Part shown: one piece after another, positions 1,575-22,044 of the stretch
Position numbering within the stretch: the stretch's first letter is position 1
How the letters are laid out: every line of letters begins with the position of its first letter
Virus record (IMG/VR): IMGVR_UViG_3300022902_000084
Coordinates: 1 to 22,650 of that record
Direction: 5' to 3' (one strand)
Source of the DNA: a virus
DNA length: 22,650 nt
Made by a program: the position numbers and the translations under genes
Notes under the pieces: generated by a model
Database searches by the model: none
What the model saw: only the letters and a program-made list of their open reading frames with translations
What the model was told of the DNA's origin: nothing

Positions 1575-1603
1575 TTGACGCGCCGATCCTCGTGCCCCAT
1601 ACT
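1575..1603 (+). promoter_or_regulatory. Candidate sigma70-type promoter
   Basis: Directly after the terminase stop codon there is TTGACG (1575-1580, 5 of 6 to the -35 consensus), a 17-base spacer, then CATACT (1598-1603, 4 of 6 to the -10 consensus). Transcription would begin near 1610, at the left arm of the inverted repeat at 1611-1675. It would drive the ParB-like gene. Seen by eye only; a match of this quality can occur by chance. Confidence 0.45.
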
Positions 1604-1610
1604 TCCCCCC

Positions 1611-1675
1611 GTGAGTCCCGAAACAACCCCACATTCGATTTCGTCGCCCGTCGCTTCGGCGCCTTCGGGACTCAC
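1611..1675 (+). repeat. 12-bp perfect inverted repeat, possible leader stem-loop or operator
   Basis: GTGAGTCCCGAA at 1611-1622 is the exact reverse complement of TTCGGGACTCAC at 1664-1675, with 41 bases between. Inside lies a small CGC-TTCG-GCG hairpin (1652-1661) with a UUCG loop. The left arm starts where transcription from the candidate promoter would begin, so in RNA this would be a 5' stem-loop about 27 bases before the ribosome binding site at 1703-1707. It could also be a protein-binding site in DNA. There is no T-run after it, so it does not look like a standard terminator. Confidence 0.6.
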
Positions 1676-1711
1676 ACGTCGGAGCGGCGGCGGCGATTTG
1701 TGGGAGGCATC

Positions 1712-2578
1712 GTGCCATCTTCCGTAAAGTACAGAGAAGCTGCAGCGTCCATCGAGGTGGTTACGCCCGATCAAGCGTCGGGCATGCTCAGGAGAAACAC
1801 AGGGAACCGTCCGCTGAATGAGGCGCGGGCAATGGCGCTAGCGCAAGCCATCATGCGCGGCGAGTGGGTGTTCAACGCGCAGAGCGTAGCGGTAGGTACG
1901 GATGGGCGACTTCTCGACGGACAGCACCGCCTGCGGGCGATCGAGATCAGCGGCATCGGCGTGCCGCTGCTGGTATGCAGGGGGCTCCCCCTGCTGGCGA
2001 TGCGAACAATCGACATCGGCGCGAAGCGCACGAACGGCAACATGCTGCGGGTGCTGCGCGGGATGAAGAGCGCGAATCAGGTGGCAACGGCGGTCGGGCA
2101 CCTGTACAGGCTCCTGATCGGGCCATCGGCGCTCACGAGGTACCAGATCCCAACGCCAACCGAAGTCGACAGCCTCATCGACGAGTATCCTGACGTCATC
2201 GCCGGGGTGGAGGTGTACAGAACCGCAGCGTTCCGCAGGCTCACGAAGAGGACAGGCGCGTTCGCAGCCCTCTACGCTCTTACGATGCCGACGCTCCCGG
2301 GCGAAACGGCGGAGTTCGCATCGCAACTCGTGAAGGGCGTTGATGTCGCGTCCCCCGTCGCGCACCTGCGGAACTTCGCGCTGGACATCAGGTTGAAAGA
2401 GAGCAGCAAGATGGGCACCTATCGGCGCGTGCCGAACAAGCAATTCATCGGGTGCATGATCAAGGCGTGGAACACGTTCGCGCAGGGGAACGAGATGAAG
2501 CGCCTCTTCATGACGAAGAGGGAGAAGTTTCCCGCCATCGTCGGCGGCCCGGGGTGGACTGCGCCCAACGGGGACTAG
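1712..2578 (+). CDS. ParB-like domain phage protein
   Basis: A 288-residue protein with a ParB/Srx-like N-terminal domain: the sequence around residues 67-76 reads LLDGQHRLRA, matching the GxHRxxA signature, preceded by a GEW motif (50-52) and followed by IDIGAKRT (100-107), a combination common in phage proteins of this kind. Its role is unknown; relatives are assigned to DNA binding or weak nuclease activity on fold alone. The GTG at 1712 is chosen because GGAGG (1703-1707) lies four bases before it. The frame is open back to a GTG at 1592, but that extension runs through the promoter and inverted repeat, has no ribosome site and reads like non-coding sequence. The gene lies between terminase and portal and ends on a CTAG shared with the reverse-strand gene. 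Residues 120-288 are mainly helical in appearance and not recognised. Confidence 0.75.
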   Translation: MPSSVKYREAAASIEVVTPDQASGMLRRNTGNRPLNEARAMALAQAIMRGEWVFNAQSVAVGTDGRLLDGQHRLRAIEISGIGVPLLVCRGLPLLAMRTIDIGAKRTNGNMLRVLRGMKSANQVATAVGHLYRLLIGPSALTRYQIPTPTEVDSLIDEYPDVIAGVEVYRTAAFRRLTKRTGAFAALYALTMPTLPGETAEFASQLVKGVDVASPVAHLRNFALDIRLKESSKMGTYRRVPNKQFIGCMIKAWNTFAQGNEMKRLFMTKREKFPAIVGGPGWTAPNGD

Positions 2579-2805
2579 TCCATATCCGCCATCGGGGCGA
2601 CTATCCCGATCGTGATCACCCCTCGCTCGCCTACCCCCGAATCCTCGTCGAAAAGATCAAGCAACGCGCGCGCGATTGCGCGGCGGCAGAAGACAGGCGT
2701 TGCCTCGTTGGCTAAGATTGCATCGACAGATCTGATGTAGGCTGCGAAGTCTGCCAGGGAAGGGAACGGATCTTCATCCACTACCAACCCCGCCCACAGG
2801 CGCAC
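2575..2805 (-). CDS. Small hypothetical protein, second gene of reverse-strand pair
   Basis: A short reverse-strand frame of unknown function, about 76 residues from the GTG at 2805, which has a GGAG seven bases upstream on its strand. Other possible starts are GTG at 2781 (8-base overlap with the preceding gene) and ATG at 2850. The protein has one likely amphipathic helix (FPSLADFAAYIRSVDAILA) then a second segment with CRRAIARALLDLF, and ends MADMD. No family is recognised. It overlaps the end of the ribbon-helix-helix gene, so the two are probably co-translated, and its stop codon shares CTAG with the convergent ParB-like gene. The pairing resembles the gene order of many toxin-antitoxin or repressor-partner pairs, but nothing in the sequence proves that. 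It might also be a chance open frame. Confidence 0.5.
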   Translation of the reverse strand: MRLWAGLVVDEDPFPSLADFAAYIRSVDAILANEATPVFCRRAIARALLDLFDEDSGVGERGVITIGIVAPMADMD

Positions 2806-2986
2806 CGCTGCACTCCACCTCAAGCGCCCGCAAGCCCCGCTCCATCGCAAGCCGCAGCACCTTCGTTCGGCTCGACTTCGCCCACCTGTTCATCTCGTGA
2901 TAGCGGGCCACTGACGACACCATCGCGCTCGCCCTTGCCACGTGTTCACGCTGGATCTTGATCGGCATCGTGTCGTCGAATTCCAT
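2774..2986 (-). CDS. Probable ribbon-helix-helix DNA-binding protein
   Basis: A 70-residue protein with the build of a ribbon-helix-helix (Arc/MetJ-like) regulator: a short beta segment around MPIKIQ (7-12), a first helix (about 14-30), a turn near KSSR, and a second helix with VLRLAMERGLRALE (43-56), which is very typical of this fold. Such proteins dimerise and bind short repeated operators, often repressing their own promoter. The ATG at 2986 is chosen because its strand carries GGAGGG five bases upstream (plus-strand 2992-2997); an in-frame ATG at 3037 would put the operator-like repeats inside the coding region. It is transcribed against all surrounding virion genes and overlaps a second small gene at its 3' end. 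A candidate promoter and operator cluster lie just upstream. The DNA-binding role is inferred from sequence pattern only. Confidence 0.65.
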   Translation of the reverse strand: MEFDDTMPIKIQREHVARASAMVSSVARYHEMNRWAKSSRTKVLRLAMERGLRALEVECSGAPVGGVGSG

Positions 2987-3007
2987 GGGCGCCCTCCAAA
3001 AAACCAA

Positions 3008-3060
3008 GCGGTAACCGCCCGCGGTTATTCCGCGCACCCATCATAGCACGCGGGTAACGC
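3008..3060. promoter_or_regulatory. Cluster of operator-like palindromes
   Basis: Related short palindromes lie between the reverse-strand regulator gene and the portal gene: GCGGTAACCGC (3008-3018), GCGGTTATTCCGC (3021-3033) and GCGGGTAACGC (3050-3060). The first two overlap a perfect 7+7 inverted repeat with a 2-base spacer, TAACCGC-CC-GCGGTTA (3012-3027). The spacing and half-site repetition are what a ribbon-helix-helix dimer usually binds. The sites flank and lie inside the candidate promoter on the minus strand, so autorepression is a reasonable guess. Confidence 0.5.
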
Positions 3061-3069
3061 TATCCCCAA
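3040..3069 (-). promoter_or_regulatory. Candidate promoter for the reverse-strand pair
   Basis: On the minus strand TATGAT (plus 3045-3040, 5 of 6 to the -10 consensus) is preceded by an 18-base spacer and TTGGGG (3069-3064, a weak -35). Transcription would start near 3033 and run through the operator-like repeats to the ribosome binding site at 2997-2992. The -35 overlaps the portal start codon, so this promoter could interfere with portal expression. Confidence 0.4.
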
Positions 3070-5582
3070 TGGCAGCCGCCACCGTCACCCGCCACGTTCA
3101 CACGAGGCGAGCATCCTCACCACCCGCGCGCAAGCGGCAGCGCCCCTCCATGCGGATCTATGAAGACGGCGACGCGTTCGCCGAGTTGGAGCGCAGGGAG
3201 TCCAACGGCCAGCCCATCGGGTGGAGCGGCACGGAACTCGCGGGCGGATACTTCACCGGCGTCGATCCCAACGCCGAGATCGACAACGACGCATGGCTCG
3301 GCGACACGTCTGCACCCGGCTTCGGCGAGCAGATGGCCAAGGAAGACGGCGAGGTAGGCGCGTCCGTTGACGAGTGGATGGAGGCGGTCCAGAACGCCCC
3401 GTGGACGGTGCAGCCGGGAGACGCCGACGACCCGCAGCAGCACATGATGGCCGAGTTCATCCGCCGCATGCTGTTTGAGGTGAGCGAGACGAGTTGGGAG
3501 ACGAATAGCCGTCACCTAGCGCGCTCCGTGCTGTGGGGCTGCTCACCGTCTGAGATCGTTACCGGGTACGTCAGCGACGACGAGACGCCGGTGTATGAGC
3601 AGGTCAAAGAGCCGGGCCGCATGGCGAAGTGGACGCCTACCGGGCAGTTCGATCGCGGTCACTACGTGCTCACGGACCTCGCCCCGCGGTCGCCAGCATC
3701 CATCGAGCGGTGGTTGCAGGACAAGGAAACGGGCCGATTCGCAGGCATCGAGCAGATCGGCCGCATGGACGACACCACGGGGCTAGGTACAGGGAACATC
3801 GAGATCCCCGCCGATCGCCTCGTGCTGGTGACGTACGGCGGTGACTCCGGCAACTGGCAAGGCGTGAGCCGCTACCGCCCCGCATACATCCTGTGGAAGG
3901 CCCGCAAGGTGCTTCTGCGGATGCACGTGATCGCCGCTGAGAGATTCGGCGTAGGCGTCCCGAACGCCAAGGTAGTAGCCAAGCCCGGCGAGGTGGATGA
4001 CAAGACGCTGCGCGACAACTGGGCCAGCGTCAAGCGCATGGTGGCCCGCTATCGCGGCGGCTCGCAGGCATGGATCGCCACGCCCTACGGGATCGACGTC
4101 GACATCATGGACACGGCGCTTCCCGCCGCAGACGCGATCCTCAAGCTGTATCAGGCGCTGAGCACCGAGATCCACATCATCGGGCAGACGCAGCATCTGG
4201 TGCAGGGTACGCAGTCCGGCAGCGGTGGCCTCGGCACGCAGGGCCTTCGCGATGGCCAGTCCAGCGACTTCCGCAACACGATCAATCCGCTACTCGACAG
4301 CATCGCCCGCGAGACAAACCGCCGACTCGTCAAGCCGCTGATCGATCTCAACTGGGAAGGCGTACGCACGTACCCGTTTCTCCAGGTGGGTGACGCCGCA
4401 CAGCAGAGCGTCAAGGAACAGCTCGAGGCTTACGAGATCGGCGTGCGCTCGCGTGCGCTGACGCCGCAGCCCGAAGACGAAGACTTTTTCCGGCAAGAGT
4501 CTGGGTTGCCCGTTCGTGTCGAAGTTGAGGCCGAAGAGGAGCCGGACGAAGATCCCGACGACGACACCACCGACGAGCCCGAACAGCTCGCCGAGTGCGC
4601 ATGCGGCTGCGGTGGCGTGGACATGTTCGCCGACATGCCCTTTGAGGCCGAGCAGGGTCGAGGCGCCGAGCGCGTGCGGCAACTCGCCGAGTCGAAATTC
4701 GACGACCGATCGAGTCGCGTGGCCCGTGAAGACGCCATCACCAGGATCTCGGTGGACACGCACAACACGATCCGCCGTCGCGTGCTCGAGCCGTATCTAG
4801 AGAAGATCGCGCCCGCGCTCGCGAGCGGTGACGCCGCTGCCATCGCAAGGACGCCGCTACCAGGCAAGCCCGCCCTCGTTCGCACGCTGCGCGACGGGTA
4901 CCAGGACGTGCGGCAGTTGGGAAAGGCGGAAGTCAAGCGCGAGACGAAGCGGATGAGCAAAGATCCCGACTTCGCCGCCGACATCGCCGAGGCAATGGCC
5001 GAGTGGGCGCAGGACAACCCGTCGCTCTTCGCCGACAACCCCAGCGGGCAAGCCAACTCGGTCGACGACATCGTGCGCAAGGCGGGCGAGATCGTAAAGA
5101 AGATCGGCCTGATCGCCACGACCACCGCGTCCATGCTGTTCGGCCAAGTCGACGCCACGATCAACAGCTATCTGCAGCAGGTGCCCGTCAACGAGTGGGT
5201 GCCGTCCGCGATCATGGAGCGGGTGCAGTCCGTCATCACGCCGCGCACCATCGCAAGCGACGCAGTGATCCAGGACTCCAACAGCGTCTACAGCGTCGGC
5301 AGAGCCGAACAGGGGCGCATCGAGGGTGCTGGGACTGTCGTCTATACCGTGAACCCTGAGATCGGCATCAGCGGCCCTCACGTCGTGTGCGTCGAGTGCG
5401 AGGCGACGGCAGCGAGCGCGGCGAATCCGGCCGAGGTGGGAACGCCTCAAGAGGAACAGCTCATGGCGCCGAATCCGCTGTGTTTGTCCACGCTTAGCGG
5501 CGTGAACAACTGCTGGTGCACGCTGATCTATCTCTCCACAACGAGCACGGCGGACGCGGCCGATGCGGCGGGGCTGGCATGA
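3069..5582 (+). CDS. Portal protein fused to MuF-like head morphogenesis domain
   Basis: An 837-residue protein joining two usually separate head proteins. Residues about 60-480 match the Mu gp29-like (DUF935) portal: VDEWMEAVQNAPWTVQP near 100-116, then the portal core, ending with LTPQPEDEDFFRQESGLP (464-481). The portal forms the ring through which DNA enters and to which the tail attaches. An acidic linker (486-507) and a CACGCG cluster (510-515) follow. Residues about 530-825 resemble the SPP1 gp7/Mu gpF family, ending with CVEC (774-777), C805 and NCWCTLIY (814-821), the usual cysteine-rich MuF end. That domain normally sits inside the procapsid near the portal. The ATG at 3069 has no clear ribosome site; the ATG at 3150 (residue 28) is an alternative and the basic first 27 residues may be dispensable. 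The stop overlaps the next start by four bases (ATGA). Confidence 0.88.
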   Translation: MAAATVTRHVHTRRASSPPARKRQRPSMRIYEDGDAFAELERRESNGQPIGWSGTELAGGYFTGVDPNAEIDNDAWLGDTSAPGFGEQMAKEDGEVGASVDEWMEAVQNAPWTVQPGDADDPQQHMMAEFIRRMLFEVSETSWETNSRHLARSVLWGCSPSEIVTGYVSDDETPVYEQVKEPGRMAKWTPTGQFDRGHYVLTDLAPRSPASIERWLQDKETGRFAGIEQIGRMDDTTGLGTGNIEIPADRLVLVTYGGDSGNWQGVSRYRPAYILWKARKVLLRMHVIAAERFGVGVPNAKVVAKPGEVDDKTLRDNWASVKRMVARYRGGSQAWIATPYGIDVDIMDTALPAADAILKLYQALSTEIHIIGQTQHLVQGTQSGSGGLGTQGLRDGQSSDFRNTINPLLDSIARETNRRLVKPLIDLNWEGVRTYPFLQVGDAAQQSVKEQLEAYEIGVRSRALTPQPEDEDFFRQESGLPVRVEVEAEEEPDEDPDDDTTDEPEQLAECACGCGGVDMFADMPFEAEQGRGAERVRQLAESKFDDRSSRVAREDAITRISVDTHNTIRRRVLEPYLEKIAPALASGDAAAIARTPLPGKPALVRTLRDGYQDVRQLGKAEVKRETKRMSKDPDFAADIAEAMAEWAQDNPSLFADNPSGQANSVDDIVRKAGEIVKKIGLIATTTASMLFGQVDATINSYLQQVPVNEWVPSAIMERVQSVITPRTIASDAVIQDSNSVYSVGRAEQGRIEGAGTVVYTVNPEIGISGPHVVCVECEATAASAANPAEVGTPQEEQLMAPNPLCLSTLSGVNNCWCTLIYLSTTSTADAADAAGLA

Positions 5583-8169: not shown

Positions 8170-9774
8170 ATGGGTCGTAACAGAGTACTTCCTCACAGCC
8201 CGATTCTCCTGGGTGACGCACAGGTGCAGAGCGCCTCGACGTTCACGGTGGAGCGGGGGCGGTGGTACATCGGGTCGGCTGCTGTCACGGCCTCGGCCGC
8301 ACAGCTCAACGGCGTCGAGTCGGAGCGCGTGGCCCACGCAAGCGCCAACATCTCGGTCGGCCGCCTCGTGTACATCTCCGGCGTCACCAGCGACGTCCCG
8401 GCCGTCACCCTCGCGGGTGCGTCTGCTCCGGCCCATGCGGCGCAGTACATGGTCACCTCGGCGATCACGTCGGGGAGCATCGGCCGGATCGACAACGTCG
8501 GCCGGATCTCCGGGCTCTCCACCGCGGATCTCGGTGCGGCTGACGGCAACGTCTACCTCGGCAGTGCAGCGACGGGCCTCATGGCGTCGAGCACGTCGGG
8601 GCCGCTGCTGATCACGCAGCGTGTCGCGCAAGTCGTCACCCGCGACTCGGGTACAGGCGGCGTACTGGAGATCATGATCGGCCCGGCTCAGCGCCTCGGT
8701 CGTGACGCGATCCAGCTGTCGGCGATCCAGTCCAATTCGATCGCCGCCGGGCATGTCGTTCAGCGTCACGTCGGCGACTCCGCCATCTCCGCGGCTCACG
8801 TGCAGATGTCGGCCCTGTCCGGCCTGCAGATCAAGGCGTCGGGCGTCGTGTCTTCGCGACTCGCCGTTGACGCGGTGGGCCAGCGCCACATCGGCAACAG
8901 CCAGATCAGCGGGGCACACCTGCAGGTCTCGGCGGTGGCTGCAGCGGCGATCCAGTCCAACGCGGTCACGCAGCCGAAGATCGGCGACAGCGCCATCAGC
9001 GCCGCACACGTGCAGATGTCGAGCCTCAGCGGTCTCCAGATCGCTGCGTCCGGTGTCGTCTCGTCTCGCATCGGGATCGACGCCATCGGGCAGAGGCACA
9101 TCAGCGACTCGGCGATCAGCGCCGCACATGTCCAGATGTCCAGCCTTTCCGGGCTGCAGATCGTGGCATCCGGCGTCGTCTCCTCGCGGATCGGCCTCGG
9201 CGCCATCGTCGAGCGGCACATCGCGTCCAACGTGATCTCCGCAAATAAGATGGTCATCACCGCCGACGAGACGATCGTCGGAAACGCGACAGGATCGGGG
9301 CTCTCCCGTGACTGCCTGCCCAAGGTGCTCGCCGAGTCGTTCACCGCGGCCGACTTCTCCGCAGCGGCGAACGCCGATACGGTGGGTTTCGCTGTGTCGA
9401 TCCCCGATCAGGCGGTCGTCCAGGGCGCGTGGTTCGATCTGACTACCCTGTGGGGCAACGGCGCCACGGGCTCCAGTCTGTCGAACGTGCACGTTGACTT
9501 CGGCCTGTCCGGCGCGGTGACCATCGATACCGATGGCTTCTGCAACGGCTACCCGATCTTCAGCGGTGTCGACGCAGTCGGTACGAAGAACCCGATGAGC
9601 TACCCGGTGCCGCAGGTGCTGTTCAGCGGTGGCCCGGTCTACGTCACCAGCAACGCTCAGTTGCCGATCATCACGATCAGCGCGACCGGCGTGAACATGT
9701 CGAACGTCAGCAACGGCGGTCTTCGTGCGTACGTGATGTACATCGAACAGCCGGTGGGCTCCGCCATCACCTGA
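8170..9774 (+). CDS. Probable head fibre with 10-residue repeats
   Basis: A 534-residue protein in three parts. Residues 1-180 are beta-rich and resemble a capsid-binding domain. Residues 181-370 consist of 19 consecutive decads of the form [IVLM]xxx[AGSHQ][IVL]xxx[HRKQ], for example VGDSAISAAH, VQMSSLSGLQ and IAASGVVSSR; every four make a 40-residue super-repeat, one of which has lost a decad. Similar decads (IADGAVTTAK type) occur in phi29-like head fibres, which form supercoiled trimeric helix-turn-helix rods. Residues 380-534 form a beta-sandwich domain like those at the tips of such fibres. The start ATG at 8170 follows AGGAAGGAGG (8154-8163). The open frame extends further upstream to 7474 inside the capsid gene, but that part is out-of-frame shadow. 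Position right after the capsid gene supports a head, not tail, fibre. Confidence 0.7.
   Translation: MGRNRVLPHSPILLGDAQVQSASTFTVERGRWYIGSAAVTASAAQLNGVESERVAHASANISVGRLVYISGVTSDVPAVTLAGASAPAHAAQYMVTSAITSGSIGRIDNVGRISGLSTADLGAADGNVYLGSAATGLMASSTSGPLLITQRVAQVVTRDSGTGGVLEIMIGPAQRLGRDAIQLSAIQSNSIAAGHVVQRHVGDSAISAAHVQMSALSGLQIKASGVVSSRLAVDAVGQRHIGNSQISGAHLQVSAVAAAAIQSNAVTQPKIGDSAISAAHVQMSSLSGLQIAASGVVSSRIGIDAIGQRHISDSAISAAHVQMSSLSGLQIVASGVVSSRIGLGAIVERHIASNVISANKMVITADETIVGNATGSGLSRDCLPKVLAESFTAADFSAAANADTVGFAVSIPDQAVVQGAWFDLTTLWGNGATGSSLSNVHVDFGLSGAVTIDTDGFCNGYPIFSGVDAVGTKNPMSYPVPQVLFSGGPVYVTSNAQLPIITISATGVNMSNVSNGGLRAYVMYIEQPVGSAIT
8710..9279 (+). repeat. Coding repeat array: 19 decads in the head fibre
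   Basis: Each unit is 30 bases (10 residues), grouped in fours (120 bases). The third group lacks one unit, so the GDSAISAAH-type units lie 40, 30, 40 and 40 residues apart. The repeats are conserved in protein but have many synonymous differences, so they are old and not recent slippage products. Confidence 0.85.
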
Positions 9775-21210: not shown

Positions 21211-22044
21211 ATGGCTAACGGTCCTTGGGGTTTCAAGCGTACGGGCGGACGGTTCGATCTGCAGATGGGCCCGCGCATCACCGAAGCGTCAGCGGGCGAT
21301 AGCGCCACGTGGGCGCAGTTGCTGAGCACAGCATCGTCGGTCGCCTTCGCCACGTCAGCAGCGCACGCTGGTAGCGCGACGTTCGCGGATTCGGCGGCAT
21401 ACGCTGCTAGCGCCGGATACGCGGCAAGCGCTGGGCACGCTGGATCGGCAACTTTCGCGGATTCGGCGGCGTCAGCGGGCTACGCGGTGTCGGCCTCTTA
21501 CGCTGAGTCGGCTGCCTATGCTGCTTCTGCCGCCTATGCCGCGAGCGCTGGATACGCTGCGAGTGCTGCCTACGCTGCTAGCGCCGGATACGCGGCAAGC
21601 GCAGGCCATGCCAACAGCGCCACCGCTGCGACGTCGGCGGCAAAGGCGAACACCGCCAGCGCCATCGACGACGGGGTGGCGAGTGCGACGGGCGCGGAGA
21701 TCGTGTCGGCTGTCGACTTGATCAACAGCCACGTGCACGCGCGGTTGCGGATGCGGTCGCTTGGCCCGCTCGCGGTGAATGTCAAGGCTCCCACGTCGGC
21801 GCAGTGGCTGATCTTCAACCCAGCGAGCAATCTGCAGGTGAGTTTCCCTGCTGCGAGTTCGGTGCCGGGTACCGAGTGGGACATCACAACGATCGGCGTG
21901 TCCGAACTGTCGTGCATCGCCGGAAGCGGCGACTTCATCGGCGTCGCCGGTGCCGGATCGTTCGTGTCGTCGGTGGTGCTCTCGTCGCCGCTTGAGACGG
22001 TCACAATTCGGGCGTTCGGCTCCAACGCCCTGATCGTGGTTTAG
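21211..22044 (+). CDS. Fibre-like protein with hexapeptide repeats
   Basis: A 277-residue protein starting at ATG 21211 after GGAG (21201-21204). Residues about 43-146 are built from 6-residue units of the form xYAxSA (AYAASA, GYAASA, GHAGSA, TFADSA), with a three-residue slip ASA near 87-89 that changes phase by half a repeat. Such Ala/Ser/Tyr periodic segments are common in phage tail fibres, where they form a thin trimeric rod. The C-terminal domain (about 223-277, WDITTIGV...GSNALIVV) is nearly half identical to the next small protein. It lies after tip proteins, so it probably contributes to adsorption. The part between (150-220) is a linker with INSHVHARLR. Confidence 0.65.
   Translation: MANGPWGFKRTGGRFDLQMGPRITEASAGDSATWAQLLSTASSVAFATSAAHAGSATFADSAAYAASAGYAASAGHAGSATFADSAASAGYAVSASYAESAAYAASAAYAASAGYAASAAYAASAGYAASAGHANSATAATSAAKANTASAIDDGVASATGAEIVSAVDLINSHVHARLRMRSLGPLAVNVKAPTSAQWLIFNPASNLQVSFPAASSVPGTEWDITTIGVSELSCIAGSGDFIGVAGAGSFVSSVVLSSPLETVTIRAFGSNALIVV
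21337..21648 (+). repeat. Coding hexapeptide (18-base) repeats
   Basis: Tandem 18-base units encode xYAxSA. Codons vary between units, although a 32-base segment (21400-21431) recurs exactly at 21571-21602, 171 bases apart, which equals nine and a half units and reflects the inserted half-unit. This suggests an internal duplication more recent than the rest. Confidence 0.85.

Follow-up and report, generated by a model that had tools for sequence, protein, structure and literature searches.

In phage P22, the immunity I region, or "ant moron", carries the small ribbon-helix-helix (RHH) repressors Arc and Mnt, with promoters of their own, inside the late operon; Arc controls the operon that encodes it, and the moron is thought to affect how many late transcripts get as far as the tailspike gene downstream (PMC2629481). 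Another P22 moron of the late region, pid, is oriented in reverse and targets a host operon (PMC3573128). RHH antitoxins, RelB among them, act as repressors of the operons that encode them (PMC2812701).

The window, by which we mean the whole 22.65-kb stretch of DNA analysed, is an IMG/VR phage record encoding a terminase, a ParB-like protein, a Mu-type portal, a protease-like protein, a capsid protein and tail proteins, all rightward. Between the ParB-like and portal genes lie two small leftward genes, here called P1 and P2. The unit resembles the ant moron in its small (here probable) RHH repressor, its own promoter and its insertion in a late operon. It differs in several respects: it is placed between the terminase and ParB-like genes and the portal gene, an antirepressor or second repressor is not recognised, sequence matching links P1 to none of the RHH families, and P1 is constant in two lineages while its neighbours vary. 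Like pid, P1 is small, of unrecognised family and directed against the surrounding late genes; unlike pid, whose target is the host dgo operon and which is missing from related phages or replaced there (PMC3573128), P1 is kept together with its control DNA. With RHH antitoxins it shares the first place in a two-gene operon and likely autorepression, whereas its partner P2 is dispensable (it is absent from the distant relative L014 described below) and shows no toxin features. The general idea is already known from phage P22.

Layout of the locus

From the stop of the ParB-like gene at 2578 to the portal start at 3069 there are 490 bases with zero rightward genes and the two leftward ones. The features of the locus, in window coordinates, are the following.

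1592..2578, plus strand: ParB-like gene (phrog_5931, E 1.3e-53), the convergent neighbour
2575..2781, minus strand: P2, an acidic protein of 68 aa, GTG at 2781 and TAG at 2575 (open reading frame, codon score)
2774..2986, minus strand: P1, an RHH-like protein of 70 aa, ATG at 2986 and TGA at 2774 (open reading frame, L014 homologue, codon score, profile comparison)
2992..2997, minus strand: Shine-Dalgarno sequence GGAGGG of P1, about 6 nt upstream of the ATG (sequence)
3004..3016, no strand: conserved core CCAAGCGGTARCC, a zero-mismatch site found once per phage record
3008..3018, no strand: palindrome GCGGTAACCGC, a candidate operator that lies in the block conserved with L014
3012..3027, no strand: palindrome TAACCGC-CC-GCGGTTA, candidate operator
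about 3019-3033, no strand: palindrome CGCGGTTATTCCGCG, 15 nt (sequence)
3040..3048, minus strand: predicted extended -10 element TGCTATGAT of P1, with TATGAT at 3045-3040; the top sigma-70-like site in the 39-kb phage sequence
3050..3060, no strand: imperfect repeat GCGGGTAACGC of the GCGGTAACCGC box, between the -10 and the portal start, with related L014 sequence aligned
3064..3069, minus strand: weak -35-like hexamer TTGGGG (3/6 matches, spacing 18), which includes base 3069, the first of the portal ATG
3069..5582, plus strand: Mu-type portal gene (PF06074, E 2e-33), the divergent neighbour of P1

Both open reading frames of the overlapping minus-strand pair reported in an earlier sequence-only reading are thus present, and the GGAGGG ribosome site of P1 stands where that reading had seen it. 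The GTG of P2 lies within the stop region of P1 (GTGGATGA), so that the start of P2 overlaps the stop of P1. At the other end, P2 and the ParB-like gene meet tail to tail, the two stops having a CTAG in common. The claim that all other genes run from left to right is valid inside the window; the near-identical contig L022, which extends 16 kb further upstream, has leftward genes as well. At the portal ATG (3069) an evident Shine-Dalgarno sequence is not found upstream, in contrast to several other genes of the window, and inspection by eye reveals no evident rightward promoter for the portal.

Two alternative gene calls were discarded. A 91-aa version of P2 (2850-2575 in the list of open reading frames) overlaps P1 by 77 nt and was rejected because the 23 residues that it adds at the N terminus come from the DNA of P1 in another frame. 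A longer P1, starting from a GTG at 3037, has a lower codon score, and its upstream frame is without a counterpart in L014.

Some of the surrounding genes can be described further. Upstream of the terminase, at L022 13625-15142 (about -2680 to -1163 in window numbering), a 506-aa MptE-like protein (PF01973, E 2.8e-33) is encoded; it is 56% identical to the product of the gene at the matching place in L014 and forms an unexpected conserved neighbour of the packaging genes. At L022 5121-6356, minus strand, lies a gene whose 412-aa product contains cysteine pairs and the motif SGGKDS and by eye looks like a PP-loop amidotransferase; it has no Pfam match at E 0.5. The open reading frame translations of fibre-like genes at window positions 8500-9250 and 21300-21650 contain the protein repeats SAISAAHVQMSSLSGLQI and AASAGYAASAGHA.

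Codon usage was modelled on twelve genes of the window; by this model the P1 frame scores 0.178 bits per codon and the P2 frame 0.204, both weak for true genes. Wrong-frame stretches score as high in 2.6% (P1) and 1.9% (P2) of cases, and true-frame stretches score as low in 4-7%. We regard codon usage as suggestive of coding for P1 and P2, and not as decisive. The segment 2575-3069 is identical in all copies of the window from IMG/VR and from a Poribacteria metagenome-assembled genome (MAG); the copies differ nowhere in it, and near-identical relatives therefore provide no selection signal.

P1 in a distant phage lineage

The decisive coding evidence for P1 is comparative and comes from L014, a 59-kb contig of a distinct lineage found by a terminase search. 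Its proteins share 56% (terminase), 53% (portal) and 56% (capsid) identity with those of the window phage. Between its terminase and portal genes, at 8287-8060 on the minus strand, L014 encodes a 75-aa protein with 40% identity to P1; AGGAGG precedes its ATG, and the two proteins have the tail PVGGVG in common. The longest DNA match shared by the two genes is 9 nt, and they are too diverged to align as DNA, so the protein is what was kept. Differences at the three codon positions number 33, 31 and 36, too saturated to reveal purifying selection by themselves. The sequence-only reading had proposed comparison with related phages and had named in advance a frame not conserved there as grounds for dropping its proposal; the P1 frame is conserved in L014, in the same place and orientation. 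Judged by this comparison, P1 is a real gene, because a distant relative keeps both the gene and its control DNA at the same position.

The neighbours of P1 are less constant. P2 and the ParB-like gene are both absent at this place in L014, and their slot holds a rightward lipoprotein-like open reading frame that likewise ends in the shared CTAG. L044, a more distant portal relative in the Poribacteria MAG, has no reverse P1-like gene; P1 is present in both closer lineages. P2 has no relatives beyond near-identical copies, and for P1 none were found in cultured phages and plasmids. Scans of IMG/VR for P1 gained just one further lineage, so the comparison rests on two lineages; 85 genomes of the phylum of the MAG contain no further P1 outside that MAG. 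The MAG, assigned to Candidatus Poribacteria, includes a near-identical 22-kb contig, the portal relative and a third P1 relative. The binning of that contig hints at Candidatus Poribacteria as the host, a hint only, given that contigs can be misbinned.

The absence of P2 from L014 bears directly on the suggestion that the pair is an antitoxin-toxin-like unit, with P1 the RHH antitoxin and autorepressor and P2 a toxin made from the same message. The regulator-then-partner order, the overlapping genes and the palindromes, which resemble those of autoregulation, would all suit such a unit, as would the precedent of RelB. However, L014 keeps P1 and its control DNA without P2, which speaks against the two being obligate partners in a toxin-antitoxin pair, the two-gene operon not being conserved. 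P2 is also strongly acidic (pI 4.1, charge -8.5) and without PADLOC, Pfam or PDB match, and P1 is likewise without a PADLOC or Pfam family. We consider this explanation improbable, and the suggestion of the sequence-only reading was not borne out.

The same comparison can be read in terms of a moron directed at the host or at superinfecting phages, in which P1, with or without P2, would be expressed in the resident state from a host-type promoter, would regulate host genes or exclude other phages, and would have no role in the late genes of the phage itself. A promoter of its own, the opposite direction and the variable neighbours (ParB-like gene and P2 in one lineage, the lipoprotein-like gene in the other) fit this description, and pid supplies a precedent. 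The preservation of P1 and its DNA beside the portal in both lineages is, however, a constancy above that of typical morons. No integrase or resolvase is found in the available, incomplete contigs, so that prophage residence is unproven. As for the elements expected of a moron, the predicted promoter of P1 is the top-ranked sigma-70-like site in both phages, while no terminator-like minus-strand site is found downstream of P2, bearing in mind that host terminator types may differ. A purely host-directed role is conceivable, if rather unlikely.

The predicted promoter and the operator-like palindromes

To place the promoter in a larger context, the window was joined to 16.3 kb of upstream sequence from the near-identical contig, giving a 39-kb phage sequence. 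The TATGAT proposed earlier as the -10 of P1 is found at 3045-3040 and forms part of the extended -10 element. The P1 promoter is the window's only match to TGnTATRAT, and the upstream 16 kb contain one more, which precedes a leftward HNH endonuclease gene. The two sites share the 12-mer GTGCTATGATGG, which occurs 2 times in the 39 kb, each time upstream of a leftward gene. The endonuclease gene, at L022 4580-4071 on the minus strand, is of the NUMOD4-HNH type and carries the 12-base promoter element of P1.

In scans with a plain E. coli-like sigma-70 matrix, which may not match the consensus of the host, the P1 promoter ranks 1 among 77,846 positions of the 39-kb phage, and the promoter of the P1 homologue ranks 1 among 118,612 positions of the 59-kb L014 genome. 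Four scoring variants of this E. coli-like matrix that use both hexamers give ranks of 1-7 out of 77,846 in the former and always 1 out of 118,612 in the latter; scoring the -10 only gives ranks 2-4 and 3-11, respectively. The L014 promoter, TTGGCA-17-TATTAT, is also the sole site there from an independent consensus scan. The window promoter falls below the threshold of that scan because its -35 is poor. The position of the -10 differs between L014 and the window phage. The sequence-only reading had placed a -35 over the portal start codon; the overlap exists and amounts to one base, whereas the quality of the hexamer is low, and an extended -10 gives a better reading of the P1 promoter than that -35 does.

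Upstream of P1, the repeated palindromes of the earlier reading are real and exceed chance: against dinucleotide shuffles, the inverted-repeat statistic has p = 0.012 and the longest arm p = 0.043. The intergenic DNA of L014 contains the conserved core and is without clear palindromes. Alignment of the P1-portal intergenic DNA of the window with that of L014 scores 31, and the maximum among 300 dinucleotide shuffles is 24 (0/300 reach the observed score). The alignment includes a 28-nt block of 79% identity (E 0.003) ending in TACCGCTTGG, a sequence with one occurrence in each phage genome (the 39-kb phage and L014); the conserved core CCAAGCGGTARCC is its longer form. Between the window and L014, this intergenic DNA is better conserved than the codons of P1 itself.

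Since each genome has a single copy of the operator core, regulation by P1 is probably local, which counts against P1 being the main repressor of lysogeny, with several sites of action in the phage genome. The strong match to a host-type promoter and a small, basic, probably DNA-binding product would be compatible with an immunity repressor. A Cro/C1-type HTH protein is nevertheless encoded elsewhere (L022 9017-9625), and no integrase is found in the available contigs; we judge such a function very improbable. The repeats might instead act in RNA, as a leader attenuator with overlapping hairpins and a T run before the ribosome site of P1. A terminator-like hit is indeed present at 3021-3005, minus strand, and two mutually exclusive leader hairpins can be drawn. 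The leader folds no better than its shuffles (z -0.88), on which ground an attenuator was rejected; terminator-like sites are expected by chance at 0.6 per region, L014 has neither T run nor hairpins, and an Rfam match is absent. We give attenuation almost no credence.

The fold of P1 and its proposed working

P1 is basic (pI 9.6). The sequence-only reading had assigned it to the RHH proteins and suggested a profile search of the 70 residues; searches of Pfam, PHROGs and NCBIfam at E up to 1 or 0.5 yield no RHH family for P1, its L014 homologue or the P1-like protein of contig L025. L025 belongs to the same Poribacteria MAG and was found with a profile built from the two phage copies alone. 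Its protein, encoded at 4428-4646, is detected by that profile with E 9e-6 and by pairwise comparison with P1 with E 1e-10, the likeness being 27% identity over 63 residues. It differs from P1 in its transposon-like context and in being without the PVGGVG tail. Beside it, L025 (1-4874) has a DDE transposase-like gene and two ATPase-like genes, identities judged by eye.

A profile of P1, the L014 homologue and L025, compared with ten RHH_1 proteins, scores 17.2, collinear with the strand-helix-helix order; the controls do not exceed 8.2 (200 column shuffles) and 8.3 (96 chunks of real phage proteins). The comparison owes most of its signal to L025, which alone scores 20.3, and P1 alone (6.6) is not distinguished from the controls. 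The AlphaFold model of P1 is weak (pLDDT 65.6), with a short strand at 11-12 and helices at 13-27 and 40-60, and a Foldseek search with it returned no match. The assignment thus keeps the profile comparison in its favour, and lacks a Pfam family, a Foldseek match and a confident model. An RHH fold for P1 is likely on the strength of the profile comparison.

With moderate confidence, we propose that P1 is an autoregulated, moron-like DNA-binding regulator in the manner of P22 arc and mnt, possibly tuning the portal. Computation supports the gene, its conservation, the conserved intergenic DNA, the strong promoter match and the single operator core per phage; the RHH fold, the binding as a dimer, the autorepression, the effect on the portal and the timing of expression are what we infer. 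P1 would be a small DNA-binding protein transcribed leftward from its own sigma-70-like promoter inside the rightward late operon. From the position of the palindromes and from precedent, P1 dimers would bind the palindromes around the P1 promoter, repress transcription of P1 and so limit its synthesis. Bound P1, or the leftward transcription it limits, may also tune the late transcription crossing into the portal and head genes, and P2, where present, would be a coupled accessory protein. The control DNA of P1 abuts the portal start, and P1 may for that reason also tune transcription into the portal and head genes. One base of the portal start lies within the -35 region and the start has no evident Shine-Dalgarno sequence, so bound P1 or leftward transcription could alter transcription into the portal; the layout makes an effect of P1 on the portal plausible.

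A bolder version would make P1 a fixed checkpoint separating the packaging genes from the head genes, and the representative of a previously undescribed family of small regulators in uncultured phages; its early expression from a host promoter would hold back transcription of portal and capsid through the single shared operator until self-repression intervenes or P2 removes it. We mention this as speculative and unlikely.

If the proposed autoregulation is correct, P1 would be another self-controlled repressor inside a late operon, an arrangement known mainly from P22, now directly before the portal gene. Each particle requires few portal copies, and a local brake would therefore be a testable way of setting the portal-to-capsid ratio. 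The locus also shows how conserved position and conserved control DNA can establish a gene that has diverged too far to be recognised by family databases.
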